Assembly (NCBI GenBank): GCA_004299145.1
Contig: SCQD01000329.1
Coordinates: forward strand, 1-41,004
Length of the DNA: 41,004 nt
Direction of reading: 5' to 3'
Source: Methylococcaceae bacterium
GTDB lineage: Bacteria > Pseudomonadota > Gammaproteobacteria > Methylococcales > Methylococcaceae
Both the position numbers and the translations under genes were made by a program. The notes beneath the pieces were generated by a model, which did not search any database, was not told where the DNA came from, and saw nothing but the letters and a program-made list of their open reading frames with translations. This document shows, piece by piece, positions 32,469-40,329 of this stretch; within the stretch, counting starts at the first letter, position 1, and each line of letters opens with the position of its first letter.

Positions 32469-32759
32469 TCAATAGCCCACTTCCTTCTGGTGTCGAACGG
32501 CAACGATCACGGCGGTTTGCCCGTCGTAGCGGTACAACGCAATATAACCGCTGTCGCCAAAACCGATCAACCACTCCCGGTATTCCGGCTCCATGCCTTC
32601 GGCGGGTCTGCCGATTTCCGGCTGATGGGCGATGATTTTTACACCTTCCCGGATGGCTTTTACGGCACGCTGAGCCGCATGGGTATTTTTCGCCGCCAAA
32701 AAACGATGGAGGCGCTGAACGTCCAGTAACGCGGGTGGCGACCAAATCAAACGTGGCAT
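32469..32759 (-). CDS. RelE/ParE-family toxin, second pair
   Basis: 96 residues. PRLIWSPPALLDVQRLHRFLAAKNTHAAQRAVKAIREGVKIIAHQPEIGRPAEGM..YREWLIGFGDSGYIALYRYDGQTAVIVAVRHQKEVGY follows the RelE/ParE plan: helical hairpin, then strands ending in VRHQKEVGY. This tail is typical of the RelE/StbE-ParE group. The target (mRNA or gyrase) is not decided by the sequence. It overlaps the antitoxin gene by 13 bp and runs convergent to lolD. Confidence 0.9.
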   Translation of the reverse strand: MPRLIWSPPALLDVQRLHRFLAAKNTHAAQRAVKAIREGVKIIAHQPEIGRPAEGMEPEYREWLIGFGDSGYIALYRYDGQTAVIVAVRHQKEVGY

Positions 32760-33037
32760 TCAGGCGGTTCTGCTTCTTGGCCGGTTTCCAATTTGGTCAA
32801 CCAAGCGTCTGCTTCCTCCCAGGTAACATGCAGCCCAGTGGCTTGGTATTCGTTCCATGCGCGAATACCGTCCTGCCGGAATATTTCGCGCTTTTCCTCA
32901 CGCTCGACGTATTGCAGGATGGCCTCGCGCAGCACCCAATGTGTAGTGCGGTGGCGTGCATCCGCAAGATGTTTGATGCGCTCCTTAATGCTTTGATCCA
33001 GCTTGATGGCGACAGGGCGGGCAGCGGTAGTGGTCAT
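32747..33037 (-). CDS. Ribbon-helix-helix antitoxin, second pair
   Basis: 96 residues. The N-terminus RPVAIKLDQSIKERIKHLADARHRTTHWVLREAILQYVEREEKRE is a CopG-type ribbon-helix-helix domain. The acidic C-terminal half (TWEEADAWLTKLETGQEAE) is suited to bind the toxin. The ATG is preceded by GGGAGGGATGTC, a strong ribosome binding site. It should repress its own operon; TATACT on the minus strand (33075-33080), within a partly symmetric GTAGTATATAC, could be the -10 and operator. Confidence 0.88.
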   Translation of the reverse strand: MTTTAARPVAIKLDQSIKERIKHLADARHRTTHWVLREAILQYVEREEKREIFRQDGIRAWNEYQATGLHVTWEEADAWLTKLETGQEAEPPECHV

Positions 33038-33170: not shown

Positions 33171-33527
33171 CTAAACGTTGCGCCGGTTATATTTGGTGGC
33201 GTTGCCGCGCGCCAGCGCCAGCGGGTATTTTTCCGCATTGCGCTGCATTTTTTCGCCCACGGCTTGCTCCAGATCCACGCCCAGCACGTCCGCCAATCGC
33301 AGCAGATAAATCATCACGTCGGCCATTTCTTCGCGCACGGCTTGCATAGTGTGCGAGTCGGCGTCGATGTCGCGCGATTGCGCTTCGGTCAGCCATTGAA
33401 AGTGTTCCAGCAGTTCCGCCGCCTCTACCGACAAGGCGATGGCCAGATTTTTCGGGCTGTGGAATTGTTGCCAGTCGCGCTCGTCGGCGAAGTGCTGTAG
33501 TCGGTGCTGGATGGCTGGGATGTCCAT
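33171..33527 (-). CDS. MazG-like nucleotide pyrophosphohydrolase
   Basis: 118 residues. The all-alpha NTP pyrophosphohydrolase pattern is clear: FHSPKNLAIALSVEAAELLEHFQWL (ExxE metal ligands), AVREEMADVMIYLLRLADVLGVDL (second E..D pair) and the C-terminal KMQRNAEKYPLALARGNATKY. This is the RS21-C6/DCTPP1-like group, which hydrolyses (d)CTP-type or non-canonical nucleotides to the monophosphate and pyrophosphate. Its exact substrate is unknown. The ATG at 33525-33527 lies 8 bp after the stop of the YqaA-like gene, so the two are likely co-transcribed. Confidence 0.92.
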   Translation of the reverse strand: MDIPAIQHRLQHFADERDWQQFHSPKNLAIALSVEAAELLEHFQWLTEAQSRDIDADSHTMQAVREEMADVMIYLLRLADVLGVDLEQAVGEKMQRNAEKYPLALARGNATKYNRRNV

Positions 33528-33535
33528 GGCGATTC

Positions 33536-33955
33536 TCAGTGGGTCAACCAAAGCACCACGGCATAACGCGCGGCCTTGCCCATTGCCATGGCGGCCAGAC
33601 AAGGCAGAAAGGGCAGGCGCAGCCAGCCCGCCGCCAGGCAAAAGCCATCGCCGACCAGCGGCAGCCAGGAAAACAGCAATAAAGGCATGCCGTAACGCCC
33701 CATGCGCTCCAGCATGTTTTGTTGCGGCGGCGAGTGTCTACGCAGCCAGCCCAGTGCTACGGCATAACCCAGCAACCAGGTGGTGACCGCGCCCAGGGTA
33801 TTGCCCAGCGTCGCCACGCTCAGCAGCAAGCTGTCGGAATAGCTCGCCTGCAAAGCCAGATAAGCCAGCACGGCCTCCGATCCGCCCGGGGCCAGGGTGG
33901 CGGAAATGAATGCGCTGGCGAATAAGCCGGCGAGGGCAGGGGTAAGTTCGTTCAT
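33536..33955 (-). CDS. YqaA/DedA-type (VTT domain) membrane protein
   Basis: 139 residues, with four to five hydrophobic segments. FASAFISATLAPGGSEAVLAYLAL is the re-entrant-loop signature of YqaA proteins (usually LPG.SE), followed by SVATLGNTLGAVTTWLLGY and MGRYGMPLLLFSWLPLVGDGFCLAAGWLRLPF. The wider DedA/VTT family is linked to lipid carrier flipping and envelope homeostasis; the role of YqaA itself is not established. Inner membrane. Confidence 0.9.
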   Translation of the reverse strand: MNELTPALAGLFASAFISATLAPGGSEAVLAYLALQASYSDSLLLSVATLGNTLGAVTTWLLGYAVALGWLRRHSPPQQNMLERMGRYGMPLLLFSWLPLVGDGFCLAAGWLRLPFLPCLAAMAMGKAARYAVVLWLTH

Positions 33956-34014: not shown

Positions 34015-34060
34015 GGACGCAGAGCGTCCCGGGCTACGTTCCCACGCGGAGCGTGGGAAC
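34015..34060. repeat. REP unit
   Basis: GGACGCAGAGCGTCC (34015-34029) and a 23-bp palindrome (34038-34060) built on TTCCCACGCGGAGCGTGGGA. Same family and orientation as the right half of the pair at 19252-19298. It lies just beyond the terminator of the copper operon. Confidence 0.9.
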
Positions 34061-34063
34061 GAT

Positions 34064-34092
34064 AAAAAGCCTTCGGATTTGCATCCGAAGGC
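34064..34092 (-). terminator. Intrinsic terminator of the copper operon
   Basis: On the minus strand a perfect 10-bp stem (GCCTTCGGAT paired with ATCCGAAGGC, at 34069-34078 and 34083-34092) with a 4-base loop is followed by five T residues. It starts 25 bp after the stop of the cupredoxin gene. Confidence 0.9.
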
Positions 34093-34117
34093 CTTGTGGC
34101 ATCAAACGCGGGGCGCG

Positions 34118-35071
34118 CTATTTTTTGTAGCGATGGTAAAGCTGCATAGCCAAGTCCAGCGCCATGCCCAACCACTCCTTCAGCAAGTCCACGGTGGCAT
34201 CGACCAGACTGGCCAGATCGTCGCCTTTGCTGCGCGCACGGATGCGCTGCCAGAGGTGAGGAGCGCCGAATACGCCGATGGCGATGCCCAGAATGGTCAT
34301 GCCAGACAACCAGGAACCACCGGACGACGGCGCTTTGTCGGCAGTGGCTTTGGCGCCTTTGGCCGCTGCGCCTGGAGCGGATTCCGAGTCTCCGCCCTTG
34401 GCTTTCAGCGCTGCCGCCGCCACGTCGACCTGCTCCGCCAGGACGGTGGACGGCACCGGTTCCGGCGCATTGACGTTGTAGCTGTCCGGCAAAGCGTGCG
34501 GCGTCAGGCCGGGTATGCTGGGCAGATCGCCCGTACCCTTGCCCGAAACCAACTCGGCTTTCATGCCTTTTTCCATGTGCTGGGCGATGTCGCAGTGCAC
34601 CAGGAAGGTTTTATCGTTCGGCGGCAGAATCAGCGTGCCGGTAATTTTGGCCGGGCCGGTGATTTCCAGGTGGAACATGCCTTTTTGGTAGATGTATTTG
34701 GGCAGGCCGTGCATCATCCACTGGTGGCGGACGTTGTCTTCGTTAATGAAGTTCACCGTCAACCGGGTGCAGGGCTTGACTTTCCATTGGTTCTGGTCGA
34801 AACCGAAGATAAAACCGGGCTTGGCGTATTTGCGCCCCGCCTTCACGGTGATTTCTTTATTTTCGGCGATTTCGTCGCAGCCGCCGGGCAGCGTGTCTTT
34901 GTTCTGCCCCATGATCATGCCGCCCTGCATGTCCATCAGGTGGCCGTCACCGTGATCCATCAGCGCATCGTGCACGACGGGATTGACCTCCTGTTTGGGT
35001 TCTCTGGGCTGGGCCTGCGCCGTCATGGCGGCCAGGGCGAACGTCAAACCGACGATCAGTTGCCTTTTCAT
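34118..35071 (-). CDS. Secreted, membrane-anchored cupredoxin (type 1 copper protein)
   Basis: 317 residues. A signal peptide (QLIVGLTFALAAMTAQA) is followed by a Met/His-rich stretch (34-56, HDALMDHGDGHLMDMQGGMI) that could bind copper. The cupredoxin domain (about 70-175) has the type 1 ligands His116 (VRHQW), Cys160, His165 and Met170 (HCDIAQHMEKGM). A Pro/Ala/Lys-rich linker (about 180-250) leads to one C-terminal membrane helix (WLSGMTILGIAIGVFGAPHLW) and an amphipathic tail. So an electron-transfer or copper-carrier domain is held on the periplasmic face. It starts 1 bp after the oxidase stop and is followed by a strong terminator. Confidence 0.88.
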   Translation of the reverse strand: MKRQLIVGLTFALAAMTAQAQPREPKQEVNPVVHDALMDHGDGHLMDMQGGMIMGQNKDTLPGGCDEIAENKEITVKAGRKYAKPGFIFGFDQNQWKVKPCTRLTVNFINEDNVRHQWMMHGLPKYIYQKGMFHLEITGPAKITGTLILPPNDKTFLVHCDIAQHMEKGMKAELVSGKGTGDLPSIPGLTPHALPDSYNVNAPEPVPSTVLAEQVDVAAAALKAKGGDSESAPGAAAKGAKATADKAPSSGGSWLSGMTILGIAIGVFGAPHLWQRIRARSKGDDLASLVDATVDLLKEWLGMALDLAMQLYHRYKK

Positions 35072-35072
35072 A

Positions 35073-36842
35073 TTATTTGCCTCCCATCGCTTTGATTTGC
35101 GCTATGAGCTGCGCCGCCAAAGCCATCAATCGCCGGCGATTCACATAGGCCGCATACCCCAGGGCACCCAACAGCAAGCCCCTGAGCAAGTTGCCGAAGC
35201 TGGAGGATTCACCGCCGGAACCCTCGGCGGCCGGCTGCTTTGCGGGTTTCTTGGTGGGTTCCAGCGTTTTGGGCAAAGGAGGCACGGTGTTGGGTTTGAC
35301 GCCTTCCATCTTGGGCATGCCCAGCGACTCACCCACGCTCAAGTGCTGCCAAACGGGAATTTCGCGTTTCCAGAACTTTTTGCTGAAGTAAGGCGAAACG
35401 TCCATGCCGTGCAATTCCGGCGTACCGGCGGCGTCGGCATAGCCTTTGTACACCAGCAGGCTGATGCTGCCGCCTTCACCCTGACCGTTGGTGGTAAAGG
35501 TGGTTTCCACGTGGTCGTGGAACATCCAGATGCCGGAACCGAAACTGTTCAGGCCGTCGTTGGTGGTATTCAGCTCCAGGTCCAGGCGCTGCGCCGGGGC
35601 CAGGTCGTAAACGTCGCGCTGGATGCGCGCCGCCGGGGCGTGCGGCACGCCGTCGTAATCGGTAATGGTGGCTTTGTGTCCGTGAATGTGCAGCGCCATG
35701 CCTTCGGTGTGACCGTTGAGCACGCGCAGTTTCACTTTTTGATTGGGCTCGACGTTGATCAGCGACTCCCGCAACGAATAGGGGAAGGCTCGGCCATTGA
35801 GCATGAAATAGTCATCCTTGGCGTCGGTGATGTCGTACTTCTGATTCATATTGAGCGCGATCAGGCGCGGGTCGTTGTACTGCTGGATGATCTGGTGCAG
35901 TTCTTTGTCCGCCGACTGATAGTGCAGGTCGTATTCCTGGTTGTACTTTTCCAGCACCGCCTTGGAGGGGTGGCGTACCTGCCCATTACCCAGGTTGAAA
36001 GTCTGCGGCCAGTTGTTGGCGCGGTTTTCCTCCACGATGAACATGCCGGCCAAGCCCATGGGAATATGGGTGTGGGGCTGTACGTGGCAGTGATAATACA
36101 TGGTGCCGGGCTGGCGCGGTTTGATGACGTAAGTCTTGGTCTGACCGGGCATGACGTCCATTTCCGCGGTCTGGCCCACGCCGTCGTTACCGCTGCCGCT
36201 GTGATCCATATAGGGGTGATCCACGCCGTGCAAGTGGATGGAATGCGGAAAATAGTGCGTGTTTTCCAGTACCAGCCAAACCGTATCGCCCTGCTCCACG
36301 CGGATGGCGGGAGAAGGCATGCGCAACAGCGTATTGGCTTCCAGGCTGGCAAAGCCGCGCGTCGACATGTCGCGGGATTTGGGGGTATACACCCAAAAGC
36401 CCGGTTGTATGCCCGGCGCGATATCGAAGGTGGGCACTACGCCGGGAAAGTCCGGCGAGCGCCCGTTCAGCTCCATGATTTCCAGTTTGATGACGATGCG
36501 ATCCGGGTCGCCGTCGCCGTCTTCGTCGTTGGACATGGTCACGGCATCCGGCGCCAGCTTGGTGTCCATGAGCGTATCCATGGACACGCCGTTGGTACCT
36601 TTGACGAAAGCGGCGATTTCGGAAGGGTTGTCCGGGTCGCAAACCCGGGATTCCTGCATGGCGACGCCTTCCACGGTCTGCGCATCGCGCCATACCGACG
36701 GCGCACCGCTATTGCAGAAAGGCTCTACGTCGCCCGTTTCAACTTTGACGGTGGGCGGCAAGTCAACCGCCGCAAAGGCCAGTGGCGCGGAGGCCAGTAG
36801 CGCCGCCGCCAGCCAAAACCCCCGGGTTTGCTTTCGCTTCAT
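35073..36842 (-). CDS. Membrane-anchored multicopper oxidase, probable type C two-domain form
   Basis: 589 residues with an N-terminal signal peptide (FWLAAALLASAPLAFA). Residues 27-130 are an extra N-terminal region with Cys43 and Cys68. Copper motifs: HSIHLHG (200-206) and YYHCHVQPHTHIPMG (249-263) in domain 1, ALHIHGHKA (383-391) and FHDHVETTF (441-449) in domain 2. Type 1 ligands (Cys252, His257 or His259, Met262) are seen only in domain 1. In domain 2 the Cys of the usual HCH is Asp443. This is the type C arrangement known from Nitrosomonas blue copper oxidase. A Pro/Lys/Ser-rich linker, a C-terminal membrane helix (LLRGLLLGALGYAAYV) and a short tail follow. The oxidised substrate is unknown; Cu(I), Mn(II) or phenols are possible. 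Confidence 0.88.
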   Translation of the reverse strand: MKRKQTRGFWLAAALLASAPLAFAAVDLPPTVKVETGDVEPFCNSGAPSVWRDAQTVEGVAMQESRVCDPDNPSEIAAFVKGTNGVSMDTLMDTKLAPDAVTMSNDEDGDGDPDRIVIKLEIMELNGRSPDFPGVVPTFDIAPGIQPGFWVYTPKSRDMSTRGFASLEANTLLRMPSPAIRVEQGDTVWLVLENTHYFPHSIHLHGVDHPYMDHSGSGNDGVGQTAEMDVMPGQTKTYVIKPRQPGTMYYHCHVQPHTHIPMGLAGMFIVEENRANNWPQTFNLGNGQVRHPSKAVLEKYNQEYDLHYQSADKELHQIIQQYNDPRLIALNMNQKYDITDAKDDYFMLNGRAFPYSLRESLINVEPNQKVKLRVLNGHTEGMALHIHGHKATITDYDGVPHAPAARIQRDVYDLAPAQRLDLELNTTNDGLNSFGSGIWMFHDHVETTFTTNGQGEGGSISLLVYKGYADAAGTPELHGMDVSPYFSKKFWKREIPVWQHLSVGESLGMPKMEGVKPNTVPPLPKTLEPTKKPAKQPAAEGSGGESSSFGNLLRGLLLGALGYAAYVNRRRLMALAAQLIAQIKAMGGK

Positions 36843-36907
36843 CGGTTTTTATCCCAGTGCTAGGTCATTTCAACTGTAGTCATTTCGATCAAAGGTAATA
36901 CCGCCGC

Positions 36908-37507
36908 TTAGAAGTCTTTGGCCTTCTTGAAAATGCCGTCGATCACGCCTTTGAAGCCGGCATTGGACAGGTACAGCAAATAGCCGAGCGCGGCCAGCAC
37001 GACTGCGCCGATCAGCAGGGTATTGCCGCCGCTGGGACCGCCGCCGGCACCGCTGCCTACCGTGATGGGCAAGTGAGCGTCGATGCGCTGGCCTTCGTTG
37101 ATCAAGGTGATGTGAGCCAGGTATTTGCCGGATTGGGTAAAGTTGTAGGGGGTCGTGATGACGCCGTTGCTGTGTTTGCCTTGGGGGATTTTGACCAGGG
37201 AAGTGCCTTCCGGCTCTTTGGTCAATTCGAATTCCACTTCCATTTGCCGCAACGCCTTGCCTTCATAGTCGATGACCAGATTGCTCTGGCCCGGGCCGGG
37301 GATGTCGCCGCAGTATTCGTCCATGCCGGTCAATTGCGGTTGATAAGCCGTGAAGTGCACCCAATGGGCGCCCACCGGGATGCGGCAGGTATCGAATTCT
37401 TGTGCTGCCCCGCCACCATGCGCAAAGGCATCTGACATCGGCAGGATAACCGAAACTGACAGCCCCAAAGCCAGAAGGGCATTTTTAAAGGATGTATTTT
37501 TACGCAT
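36908..37507 (-). CDS. Small secreted, membrane-anchored protein with predicted N-terminal histidine; first gene of the copper operon
   Basis: 199 residues from the ATG at 37505-37507, which has GGAAGAG as ribosome binding site. The signal peptide probably ends at DAFA, so the mature protein would begin HGGGAAQ with His30. HWVHF supplies His48 and His51; Cys41 and Cys66 may pair. The rest (LVIDYEGKALRQMEVEFELTKE, TTPYNFTQSGKYLAHITLI) looks like a beta-sandwich of about 120 residues. A Gly-rich linker and one membrane helix (LLIGAVVLAALGYLLYL) with a short basic tail follow, the same plan as its two operon partners. I do not recognise the family. A mature N-terminal His with further His residues recalls CopC and PmoB copper sites, but this is inference. 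Confidence 0.75.
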   Translation of the reverse strand: MRKNTSFKNALLALGLSVSVILPMSDAFAHGGGAAQEFDTCRIPVGAHWVHFTAYQPQLTGMDEYCGDIPGPGQSNLVIDYEGKALRQMEVEFELTKEPEGTSLVKIPQGKHSNGVITTPYNFTQSGKYLAHITLINEGQRIDAHLPITVGSGAGGGPSGGNTLLIGAVVLAALGYLLYLSNAGFKGVIDGIFKKAKDF

Positions 37508-37848
37508 AACTCTTCCCACTCTTATAAGGTGTAATTGTGACGGTGCTTTGGCAAGGCCACCCGAGCCCGCTTGTTGCGCCCACTCTCTTGAACAACCGCT
37601 AAGGAAAGGCGCCAAGTGCGGACTCTGGACTTTAGCACAGGCTTCCCGGTGAAGGGAAGCGACAATGCGACTTTACTGTCCTTACGCTCCATGCTTGGCC
37701 GGCCTTGTTACGTTATCCTAGGGGGCTTTCGTGTCGCTTTACCAGCTCCGGCTCCTATAAAATAGGAACAACCACCCACTATTCTCCGAATCATGGTACG
37801 CAGGCGTACTCTATCCGGCTGATCCAACCCAGGGCTTTGCTCCAGACC
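37508..37848. other. Divergent intergenic region with a half-repeat
   Basis: This region separates the copper operon from the lipase-like gene and should contain both promoters. Apart from the half hairpin element at 37720-37759 I see no gene and no regulator site I can name. Confidence 0.6.
37720..37759. repeat. Right half of hairpin element family A
   Basis: GGGGGCTTTCGTGTCGCTTT and ACCAGCTCCGGCTCCTATA match the right half of the copies at 845-935 and 10782-10870, including the CTATA end. The left arm and most of the core are missing, so this is a truncated or partly deleted copy in the upstream region of the lipase-like gene. Confidence 0.85.
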
Positions 37849-40329
37849 ATGCGGCGTTATTTATTTTTACTATCGATTTTATTGAGCATCGCCTGTTCCG
37901 ATGGAGCCTGGGCGTCGGGCGACACCCCCGGTGACAAAGGCGTTGGCATGGAAGCGCCGATCATTACCGAAGTCACGCCCACCACCGCCACGCTGCACCA
38001 ACTGACGCGGTTTGTCGTGACCGGCGTTAATCTGACGGCGGATATGGAATTAATCGTGAAATACTGTAAACCGGTCGGCAAAGGAAGCACCGGTTCGGCC
38101 ACCCGGCGCGTGTTTCAGTGTACGCCGCAAAAAATCGGCGACAGCAAGCTGACGATCAAGGAAAAACACGCCGGTAAAACGTTGCTGACTTCGAAAATCA
38201 TCGTATTTTCCTCGCCGAACGTGGTATTGCTGTTGCACGGCATGAGTTCCAACCCCGGCGTCTGGGAAGATTTGACGATCAATAAAACGGGGTATTTCAA
38301 ATCGGGGTGCCCGATCATTTACGCGGGAGCCCTGTCGTCCGCCGGCTTCATCCCCAATGCGCGCGGCACTTATTGTTTTCGCGTCAAGTTCGGCGAATAC
38401 GACATGGCAAACAAGCTCGATGGCTTGGACCACGCCAAGCAGTATGCCATACATCACGCTTGGCCGATGTCTGGGGATTTTTCCACTTTTTATCAATTGG
38501 GCCAGGAAGTCGAGGCGGCGGTGGACGCCATCCTCAGTATCAACCCCAATGCCAAAATCGTCCTGCTGGGCCACAGCCGCGGCGGCTTGGCGGCGCGGGC
38601 GTTTTTACAGACGCCGGGAACCACGGCGGCCAAAAGCAGTATCAAGGGTTTGATTACTTCCGGCACGCCGCATCAAGGCAGTCGTTTAGGCAGGATTTAT
38701 TTTTATATAGAAAATAGTTTACTTACCCATGCCGGCATTCACATAACCAGCGGAAACAAAGACAACGACTGGAGAACGATAAACTTTTTACTGAAGGGCA
38801 ATAAACTGGACGTACGCCGCCCGACCGTCGGTTTTCTCGCCGACACCAGCGCGCCGCTTAAAAGCTTGCGCAGAGGCATAAAATATCTTCCAAACTGGAT
38901 TCGGTATGGCCAGATTTACTATGCGGGTACCGACCTGGGCGTATTGGGATCGAAATTCGGCATCGATTATACGATTTTCGGCATCAACTGGCTTAATGCG
39001 ATCACTGTTTCAAGCCCTATGCATAGGGCGCTGGGATTAAAGTTCGGGCTGGACGACGTTTTCGACATAGATATTCCCGACATTAATATCAACCTTGAAA
39101 AACAGTTGTCCAATGCGGCCAGAATCGCGATTTTAGGGCCGGGTAGAACACCGCGCGATTACAAAGGCGACGGCATCGTGCCGGAAAACAGCCAAAAAGG
39201 CGGCGCGCCGCATGCCCATTCCTGGCGTGGAAACGGCGGTGACAACGTGTTTCACCTGGAAGAGCCGCAGCAAGTTCTGGACATCGCCACCATGTTTTGC
39301 AGAATGGGGTTTTCCGACTGGTTGAGTCGTTGCCCAGTCGGAAAAACCGCGCCCGAATCGTTGGACCCGCCGTATACGGCGGATGTGGCGGTGGAGGAGG
39401 AGGATACCCCTGCCCTGACGGCGGCATCGACGCAACGCCGGCAGGACTATCAGGCATGGCAGGAACTGCCGATCGAGGAACAATGGCGACGCTGGCAGGC
39501 GATGAACGGGGAAGACGACGACGTAGCGCGGGAACTGTTGGGCAACGCACTGGCCGAACGCTTGCAACAGGGCGAGGACGGCGGCGTTTATCAGGAAGCC
39601 GGTCTGATTTTGCGCCAATCCGCCACGCCGTTGGCGGAACGGGCGCGCTTGGCGGCACTGCTTGGCCAAACCGCAACCCAGGCGGCGTTGCAAACCTTGC
39701 TGCAGGTACTGGAAATGGGCGACGCGGCCTTACGGCCGGCGCTGTTGTCCGTCATCGAGCGGGTGGGCGATGAGCGCTGGAACGGACGCTTTCCCGCCGA
39801 GCTGTCGCCGCTGTTGCAAGCCGCCTGGCAAGATGCCGGTAACGATGCCGCATTGCTGGCATCCGTGGCGCGCGCGTTGGCCAGGATCGGCACCCCGGAT
39901 GGCGTGGCTTTACTGCTGCAAGCCGTGGCGCAGAGCGGCCAAAGCGCAGCAGCGCTGGAGCGGCGAGCGCATCTGTCCGAAACCGATGCGCGTGCTTTGG
40001 CCGCTTGGGACGTGCTGAGCCTGATCCGCAACCCGGATGCCATACCCGTATTGAGCCAGGGATTACATCAGCGCGACGCCGTGCTGTCCCAGGCCGCTGG
40101 CGATGCTTTGGCCGCCATGGGCTACCCCGAGGCCACCGCCGCATTGTTGCAGTGGGCACGGCTGGCGGACGATGCAGTGGAACCCAAGGTGGCGCTATGG
40201 CTCAATCGCCTACGCGACAGCGATTCCAAACAGTTATTGCGTGAAAACTTGTCCAGCAGCCGGCCTTACCGCAGCCAGCGCGTGCGCAAAGCCTTGCGTG
40301 ACAGGCTGGATAAGCTGGACGCGCCGTAA
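37849..40329 (+). CDS. Secreted alpha/beta hydrolase (lipase/PGAP1-like) with IPT-like and HEAT-like domains
   Basis: 826 residues from the ATG at 37849. A signal peptide (YLFLLSILLSIACSDGAWA) may be cut by signal peptidase I after AWA, or at the less typical lipobox SIAC. Residues 35-125 resemble an IPT/TIG-like beta domain (PIITEVTPTTATLHQLTRFVVTGVNL). The hydrolase domain has the oxyanion stretch VVLLLHGMSSNPGVWEDL, the nucleophile elbow LLGHSRGGLAARAF (Ser243), and late GDGIVPENS and NVFHLEEP that could give Asp and His. From about residue 520 to the end the protein is Ala/Leu-rich with repeated helical pairs (ALQTLLQVLEMGDAALRPALLSVIERVGDERW), like HEAT repeats. Likely exported lipase or esterase; the substrate is unknown. 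A longer frame upstream runs through the half-repeat and is rejected. Confidence 0.85.
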   Translation: MRRYLFLLSILLSIACSDGAWASGDTPGDKGVGMEAPIITEVTPTTATLHQLTRFVVTGVNLTADMELIVKYCKPVGKGSTGSATRRVFQCTPQKIGDSKLTIKEKHAGKTLLTSKIIVFSSPNVVLLLHGMSSNPGVWEDLTINKTGYFKSGCPIIYAGALSSAGFIPNARGTYCFRVKFGEYDMANKLDGLDHAKQYAIHHAWPMSGDFSTFYQLGQEVEAAVDAILSINPNAKIVLLGHSRGGLAARAFLQTPGTTAAKSSIKGLITSGTPHQGSRLGRIYFYIENSLLTHAGIHITSGNKDNDWRTINFLLKGNKLDVRRPTVGFLADTSAPLKSLRRGIKYLPNWIRYGQIYYAGTDLGVLGSKFGIDYTIFGINWLNAITVSSPMHRALGLKFGLDDVFDIDIPDININLEKQLSNAARIAILGPGRTPRDYKGDGIVPENSQKGGAPHAHSWRGNGGDNVFHLEEPQQVLDIATMFCRMGFSDWLSRCPVGKTAPESLDPPYTADVAVEEEDTPALTAASTQRRQDYQAWQELPIEEQWRRWQAMNGEDDDVARELLGNALAERLQQGEDGGVYQEAGLILRQSATPLAERARLAALLGQTATQAALQTLLQVLEMGDAALRPALLSVIERVGDERWNGRFPAELSPLLQAAWQDAGNDAALLASVARALARIGTPDGVALLLQAVAQSGQSAAALERRAHLSETDARALAAWDVLSLIRNPDAIPVLSQGLHQRDAVLSQAAGDALAAMGYPEATAALLQWARLADDAVEPKVALWLNRLRDSDSKQLLRENLSSSRPYRSQRVRKALRDRLDKLDAP

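Follow-up and report, generated by a model that had tools for sequence, protein, structure and literature searches.

Gene organization of the locus

We analyzed a 41,004-nucleotide stretch of DNA from a Methylococcaceae bacterium (assembly GCA_004299145.1, contig SCQD01000329.1, positions 1 to 41,004), hereafter the window, which contains a compact cluster of three genes for putative copper proteins. According to the list of open reading frames (ORFs), all three lie on the minus strand in the order small protein (36908–37507, 199 residues), multicopper oxidase (MCO; 35073–36842, 589 residues) and cupredoxin (34118–35071, 317 residues), with intergenic gaps of 65 bp between small protein and MCO and of 1 bp between MCO and cupredoxin. 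Just 3′ of the cupredoxin stop, an intrinsic terminator-like hairpin with a 13-pair stem and a T-rich tail was detected on the same strand (34066–34095). Nine sites came up in a terminator scan, where shuffled sequences averaged 7.4, and the hairpin described here has the longest stem of all nine. The arrangement thus agrees with a preliminary description of this DNA that proposed a three-gene operon closed by a terminator. That description also attributed a common plan to the three proteins, consisting of a secretion-type N-terminus and a single C-terminal helix, which hydropathy or predicted models bear out. Anchors were read from 19-residue hydropathy windows and predicted models.

Three predicted membrane-anchored copper proteins

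Judged by its sequence, the small protein is a member of the PmoD family. Its alignment profile matches the PmoD structure 6cpd with an E value of 1.5e-24, the next match having an E value of 0.2. A signal-type segment spans residues 1–29 and a C-terminal helix, assigned by hydropathy, about residues 163–181, with 19-residue hydropathy values of 1.79 and 2.11 at the N-terminus and C-terminus, respectively. Between them lies a Cys41-x9-His51-x14-Cys66 motif, in which C41 and C66 are invariant across 19 aligned PmoD rows; a simple-pattern motif scan paired the wrong Cys residues in several rows, among them L111, L119, L157, L165, L180, L212 and L223 (L, G, f and g numbers denote loci, genomes, families and genera). 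Two invariant Cys residues, an N-terminal signal-type segment and a single C-terminal helix are the features expected of PmoD/AmoD proteins. The protein had earlier been characterized as His-led, a label that PmoD membership replaces and that does not hold across the family: Asp or Gly occupies the leading position in several homologues, which also rules out a conserved His-brace. The Cx7MxHxnC motif of the CuA-forming subclass is absent from the window PmoD, which carries a Cx9HxnC pattern instead. In the available text of Fisher et al. 2018 (PMC6189053), a tested PmoD with Cx9HxnC binds copper and forms no CuA, and the role of PmoD for particulate methane monooxygenase (supply of reducing equivalents, copper loading or stabilization) is left open.

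The MCO matches Pfam families PF07732 and PF07731. Its best structure-sequence matches are 3g5w (1.3e-25) and 2zwn (1.2e-22), and the same entries are the best folds for its predicted single-chain model (4.5e-28 for 2zwn and 5.1e-27 for 3g5w; predicted local distance difference test (pLDDT) score 89), with homology spanning both domains as expected of a type C enzyme. Twelve residues are invariant in 48 aligned rows (H200, H203, H205, H251, C252, H253, H259, M262, H385, H387, H442 and H444), and H389 is kept in at least 90% of them. Several fall within the motif YHCHVQxHxHxxMGL (residues 250–264; 36051–36095, minus strand), which has invariant columns and was aligned with 3g5w. We propose H200, C252, H259 and M262 in domain 1 as candidate type 1 ligands, complemented by the His residues of a trinuclear site. 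The trinuclear His set is complete, the type 1 ligands lie in domain 1 alone and the last HxH motif reads HDH without Cys; because of this placement, the enzyme is classified as a two-domain, type-C-like MCO, in agreement with the preliminary description. The ligand roles are assigned by homology. An acidic loop at residues 106–114 (36501–36527, minus strand), with D106, D108, D110, G111, D112, P113 and D114 invariant in the 48 rows, may form a Ca2+ site. Hydropathy reaches 1.88 at the N-terminus and 1.21 at the C-terminus; the C-terminal segment forms a helix in the predicted model and scores at least 1.6 in 55 of 57 homologues measured. Assignment to CueO or CopA fell far under the cut-offs, with 35.3 bits against 525 for NF008205 and 37.2 bits against 479 for TIGR01480.

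The cupredoxin combines a Met/His-rich N-terminus, a type 1 site, a linker, a C-terminal helix and an amphipathic tail. Residues M46, M54, C65, C101, H116, C160 and H165 are invariant in 53 aligned rows and M170 is kept in at least 90% of them, so that the His, Cys, His, Met type 1 set (H116, C160, H165 and M170) is present on a cupredoxin fold. In the alignment, the Met-rich segment (residues 46–57; 34901–34936, minus strand) contains the invariant residues M46, M54 and N57 and is a candidate additional Cu(I) site. Hydropathy values are 1.05 (weak) at the N-terminus, which is helical in the predicted model, and 1.55 at the C-terminus. In curated families, the best Pfam match, PF07731, falls just under the cut-off and no NCBIfam match was obtained; a homologue (L097) passes PF07731 at 30.3 bits. 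The nearest folds for the predicted model (pLDDT 85) are auracyanins (1qhq and 2aan), blue copper proteins that serve as electron carriers.

Conservation of the trio

The preliminary description had named a failure to co-occur in other genomes as grounds for refuting the three-gene set, which withstood this check. With paralogues counted, MCO matches were present in 114 of 121 genomes of the window's order (E ≤ 1e-20), cupredoxin matches in 113 (E ≤ 1e-5) and PmoD matches in 116 (E ≤ 1e-4). Among 30 MCO loci from the window's family, 29 have both PmoD and cupredoxin within ~1.5 kb of the MCO gene and sharing its strand; the exception, L010, has no cupredoxin, as the locus ends just behind the MCO. 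Five f8 loci (L107, L110, L114, L115 and L119) contain PmoD and cupredoxin together with the gene for a VTT/DedA-like protein described below, the MCO not being in the locus. Second MCO–cupredoxin pairs without PmoD occur in several families of the order (L103, L105, L108, L112 and L117) and form one clade with L099 and L239 in the MCO tree.

Searching the contigs of named genomes with a 25-row MCO alignment detected at least 563 relatives, of which the best 80 were kept. Since these were ranked by likeness to one query, their proportions do not represent a random sample. Among these 80, 63 loci have the full trio, 10 have MCO and cupredoxin only and 7 have MCO and PmoD only; in all seven of the latter, the locus stops no more than about 260 bp past the MCO. 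Overall, we regard the trio as a real and conserved module that is built around a known protein family and is probably important.

Linkage to copper membrane monooxygenases

The preliminary description left out a connection of the set to genes for copper membrane monooxygenases (CuMMO; the methane/ammonia monooxygenase family). Among 86 loci, 30 carry pmoA or pmoB, with the recognized genes on one strand in all 30. Their most frequent order is pmoC-pmoA-pmoB-PmoD-MCO-cupredoxin (10 loci), and the cupredoxin is part of 27 of the 30. Spacing between the nearest pmo gene and the MCO gene amounts to 4.7 kb in L094, with unrelated ORFs of either strand in between, and to 2.4 kb in L221; in the remaining 28 loci it does not exceed 1.3 kb. 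Within the window's order, the trio directly follows pmo genes in f7 (L096 and L098) and in one f6 locus (L097) and lies within about 5 kb of them in f2 (L095, outside the 86-locus set) and f3 (L094); at another f6 locus, L102, no pmo genes were found nearby. Among the best 80 scan loci, 24 have pmo genes. Six Binatota loci (L166, L167, L168, L170, L173 and L209) contain two PmoD genes, the first ahead of pmoC and the second placed between pmoB and the MCO gene. L189 (CAMBFS010000153.1), labeled as a Klebsiella pneumoniae metagenome-assembled genome, features a Binatota-like PmoD-pmoCAB-MCO-cupredoxin run; this contig is probably mislabeled or mis-binned.

The two systems also co-vary across genomes, with p values that treat related genomes as independent, which they are not. 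Of 369 genomes of the class, 11 were MCO-positive and 11 CuMMO-positive, with nine positive for both (Fisher p 9e-15); without the four genomes from the window's own order, five were shared of seven and seven (p 8e-9). The mismatches were G164 and G283 with MCO only and G148 and G332 with CuMMO only. In family f6, MCO and cupredoxin were present in 12 of 12 pmoA-positive and one of six pmoA-negative genomes (p 7e-4), five of these six negatives being read by elimination. No pmoA match was obtained in 28 genomes of the order, many of which are fragmented drafts, so that single absences are weak evidence. The window's genome itself contains two matches to the CuMMO A subunit (PF02461), on the basis of which the organism is probably a methanotroph; judged by named relatives in the contig scan and the MCO tree, its order is probably Methylococcales.

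A different picture of the distribution came from 61 genomes of a family resembling ammonia-oxidizing bacteria (AOB-like), a kind assigned from its CuMMO copies. In genus g278, 21 of 22 genomes have the MCO, and these 21 also have the cupredoxin; neither was detected in g306 (0/22), g305 (0/9) or g307 (0/8). The two proteins thus share one pattern of presence and absence across all 61 genomes (21 with and 40 without). A role of MCO and cupredoxin as obligate CuMMO subunits or donors is not supported by g306, where 16 of 22 genomes have the CuMMO A subunit and none has either protein.

Trio loci in genomes without a detected CuMMO

For the 46 scan loci outside the order without pmo genes, as well as for G164 and G283, we searched the corresponding genomes for CuMMO; the pmo-free scan loci numbered 56 in all, and the other 10, which belong to the window's order or Methylothermaceae, were left out. 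No CuMMO match was obtained in 47 of these 48 MCO-bearing genomes (45 of the 46 outside the order, that of L192 having one), most of the negatives being drafts of unstated completeness in which absence may reflect an assembly gap. G164, also without a CuMMO match, is a single-contig, 99% complete genome. The complete trio is present in 40 of the 46 loci, while L192 and L238 have no PmoD and the cupredoxin is missing at a contig end in L163, L165, L183 and L219. PmoD proteins from 18 CuMMO-negative genomes matched 6cpd at 7.9e-20 as the sole match up to E 1. Fisher et al. 2018 (PMC6189053) place PmoDs in CuMMO-bearing species, 'all' of them in the main text and 98.5% of 860 in the methods. The PmoD relatives in genomes with no CuMMO match qualify this published specificity for methane and ammonia oxidizers, as worded in those sections.

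A second enzyme context emerged from the neighboring genes. In G164 (L153, 7548–16376), the trio directly follows a caa3-like oxidase cluster in the order heme o synthase, subunit II with a cytochrome c domain, subunit I, two subunit III-like genes, subunit IV, PmoD, MCO and cupredoxin. Cytochrome-oxidase clusters (cox1 and/or cox3) were recognized in 12 of the 80 scan loci, all 12 belonging to the 46 loci searched for CuMMO above, in addition to G164; the caa3-like typing refers to G164 only, the other 12 clusters being recognized by likeness to it. Three more of the 80 loci (L160, L204 and L205) have a cox2-like ORF only, and pmo and cox genes occur together in none of the 80. The oxidase genes are located before, behind or opposite to the trio, at distances from overlapping (stop-to-stop frames) to 1.1 kb in 12 of 13 loci and of 2.0 kb in L163. 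Cox11 (PF04442), a standard copper-insertion factor, was detected in 43 of 69 genomes, including that of the window and G164, in the latter of which it lies elsewhere in the genome; a role of the trio as its replacement is, therefore, not supported.

A 107-row MCO tree, built with a quick method, contained 46 rows that came from genomes without a CuMMO match. Of these, 44 grouped in one clade (Shimodaira–Hasegawa-like approximate likelihood ratio test (SH-aLRT) 99) that adjoins pmo-linked rows, some of them from named Porticoccaceae and Cellvibrionales, and two (L183 and L238) were placed outside and nearer Binatota rows. The pmo label switches at least five times on well-supported branches of this unrooted tree, in which each change may have run either way. 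For this analysis, L160, L204 and L205 were relabeled from 'cox' to 'other' and the partial MCOs L104 and L154 were left out.

A tentative copper-redox relay and its alternatives

We tentatively read the trio as an inner-membrane-anchored copper-redox or loading relay for copper-dependent, O2-using membrane enzymes, here the particulate monooxygenase, and give this reading somewhat less than an even chance. The PmoD protein would hold periplasmic copper through Cys41, His51 and Cys66. Copper and/or electrons would pass between PmoD and the cupredoxin, which has a Met-rich Cu(I)-type site and a type 1 center. The MCO would close the cycle through its type 1 and trinuclear set, with O2 oxidizing Cu(I) or the reduced cupredoxin. 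Copper would thereby be kept in the right state for enzyme loading or repair and damage by Cu(I) would be limited. The relay builds on the gene set, ligand conservation, PmoD membership, gene linkage, co-variation with CuMMO and the cytochrome-oxidase context, and the second linked enzyme, cytochrome oxidase, likewise requires copper. Also in favor are the copper binding reported for PmoD with the Cx9HxnC motif (PMC6189053) and the fall of MCA2130, a pmoD beside an MCO gene, when copper is lacking (PMC6688271). We infer that the relay would serve copper loading, with transfer in the direction given above and possibly within a complex, and the membrane anchors are predicted; passage of electrons or copper between the anchored proteins can fairly be inferred. 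A broader version, possible but doubtful, would make PmoD not CuMMO-specific but part of a cross-phylum relay of PmoD, anchored type C MCO and anchored Met-rich cupredoxin, which CuMMO and a caa3-like oxidase, as unrelated enzymes, would each employ as a dedicated metallation or electron module.

Several observations weigh against the relay. Both CuMMO A-subunit matches of the window's genome lie on contigs other than that of the trio, and G148 and G332 possess CuMMO without the MCO. No pmo genes were recognized beside the module in the mapped f1 and f8 loci, and 41 of the 80 scan loci (34 plus 7) have neither pmo nor cox genes. Some of the g306 genomes with CuMMO are single-contig assemblies with three copies; because CuMMO occurs there without either protein, some CuMMOs at least can do without MCO and cupredoxin. 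The presence of Cox11 in 43 of 69 genomes means that the trio is no simple substitute for the copper-insertion factor, and the C-terminal anchor of the window MCO is weakly hydrophobic (1.21).

One alternative is an electron-transfer module. In it, the cupredoxin, alone or together with PmoD, would deliver electrons to the monooxygenase or cytochrome oxidase or accept them from it, and the MCO would form a side branch that reduces O2 and thereby sets the redox balance. MCO and cupredoxin each have a type 1 ligand set, the nearest fold of the cupredoxin is the electron carrier auracyanin, and linkage to a cytochrome-oxidase cluster is seen in some loci, all of which would suit such a module. 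Retention of the MCO–cupredoxin pair without PmoD in 10 of 80 loci and its joint presence or absence in all 61 AOB-like-family genomes point the same way. We nevertheless consider this explanation unlikely: some CuMMO-bearing genomes have neither MCO nor cupredoxin, an O2-reducing branch beside an O2-using monooxygenase would, by reasoning, waste reductant, and the invariant Met-rich segment would be superfluous for simple electron passage.

Copper detoxification only, by an anchored cuprous oxidase with a CueO/CopA-like role that is co-regulated with copper enzymes made when copper is plentiful, would fit the MCO family membership and the reported fall of MCA2130 without copper (PMC6688271, available text). 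The same-strand pmo linkage in several branches of the MCO tree, the CueO and CopA scores far under their cut-offs (35/525 and 37/479 bits) and the near-universal presence of the MCO in one order (114/121) argue against it and make it quite improbable. Least probable in our estimation is that the MCO, partnered by the cupredoxin, oxidizes a small by-product or a metal, for instance hydroxylamine, NO, Mn(II) or Fe(II). A Nitrosomonas europaea blue copper oxidase is among the closest solved MCOs and the AOB-like genus g278 carries the pair in 21 of 22 genomes; however, because the trio is present in genomes where no CuMMO was found, it is not tied to CuMMO-derived hydroxylamine.

The conserved pairing of PmoD with an oxidase and a cupredoxin supplies two testable partners for PmoD. 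Trio loci in genomes where no CuMMO was found, some of them near a cytochrome-oxidase cluster, offer a natural comparison between copper loading and CuMMO-specific electron delivery.

Neighboring genes

The three-gene extent given in the preliminary description was incomplete, as a fourth gene downstream of the terminator had been missed. It encodes a VTT/DedA-like membrane protein (33536–33955, minus strand, 139 residues) and begins 162 bp past the cupredoxin stop, beyond the hairpin; its match to PF09335 (E 2.9e-6) scores 28.2 bits, the curated cut-off being 33.9. The gene occupies the same place in loci of f1, f2, f3, f4, f6, f7 and f8 and in two Methylothermaceae loci, while none was recognized in L111, L118, L121 and L125. 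As a member of the core module it was rejected, since it was recognized solely in the window's order and the two Methylothermaceae loci (2 of the 80 scan loci). Between terminator and VTT gene, positions 34037–34061 form a perfect 11-nt inverted repeat with a 3-nt loop, which may be a dispersed repeat.

Clustering of untagged neighbors across 92 loci, with the pre-tagged PmoD, MCO, cupredoxin, VTT, pmo and cox genes left out, yielded no further conserved neighbor of the trio, the largest group spanning at most 12 loci. In the window, the cluster is flanked by genes for a MazG-like nucleotide pyrophosphohydrolase (33171–33533, minus strand; PF12643, 5.3e-17) and for a ParE-type toxin (PF05016, 1.1e-16) with a ribbon-helix-helix antitoxin (PF01402, 1.9e-10; together 32469–33037, minus strand). 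On the other side, a divergent gene (37780–40329, plus strand) encodes an alpha/beta hydrolase fused to HEAT repeats (PF07819, 2.6e-7; PF13646, 1.8e-11).

Comparison with known systems

The preliminary description knew of no named system with this set. We likewise found no description of the full trio, this cupredoxin or the cytochrome-oxidase context among the open-licence papers listed, covered mostly at abstract level, and a supplementary figure of Fisher et al. 2018 may show part of it; PmoD, in contrast, is a named family whose pairing with MCO is in print (PMC6688271, PMC6189053). In the available text of PMC6688271, pmoD lies beside an MCO gene in Methylococcus capsulatus Bath (MCA2130, which falls without copper) and adjoins an annotated MCO gene in Methylacidiphilum. 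By this description alone, the MCA2130 locus is probably of the same type as that of the window; the cupredoxin, VTT gene and cytochrome-oxidase context are not mentioned in that part of the account. MCA2130 is not named in the main text of Larsen and Karlsen 2015 (PMC4831470). Fisher et al. 2018 report MCO genes as common neighbors of the Cx8MxnC PmoD class (PMC6189053, available text). For Binatota, pmoD was reported in five of 11 CuMMO-bearing genomes, in a paper whose main text contains neither 'multicopper' nor 'cupredoxin' (PMC8262859).

With the PmoD/AmoD family as presented in the available text of Fisher et al. 2018 (PMC6189053), where the genes lie in or near pmo operons, the small protein shares the signal-type segment, the two-Cys periplasmic domain and the C-terminal helix. 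The window-type PmoD differs from the PmoDs described there in recurring in a cassette with MCO and cupredoxin and in having relatives in genomes where no CuMMO was found. The MCO shares two cupredoxin domains, domain-1 type 1 ligands and trinuclear His residues with the Nitrosomonas europaea blue copper oxidase (3g5w) and a metagenomic laccase (2zwn), to which it adds ~170 N-terminal residues with the acidic loop, a C-terminal linker and a predicted membrane helix. Similarly, the window cupredoxin has the type 1 cupredoxin fold in common with auracyanin and adds a Met-rich N-terminal segment and a C-terminal helix.

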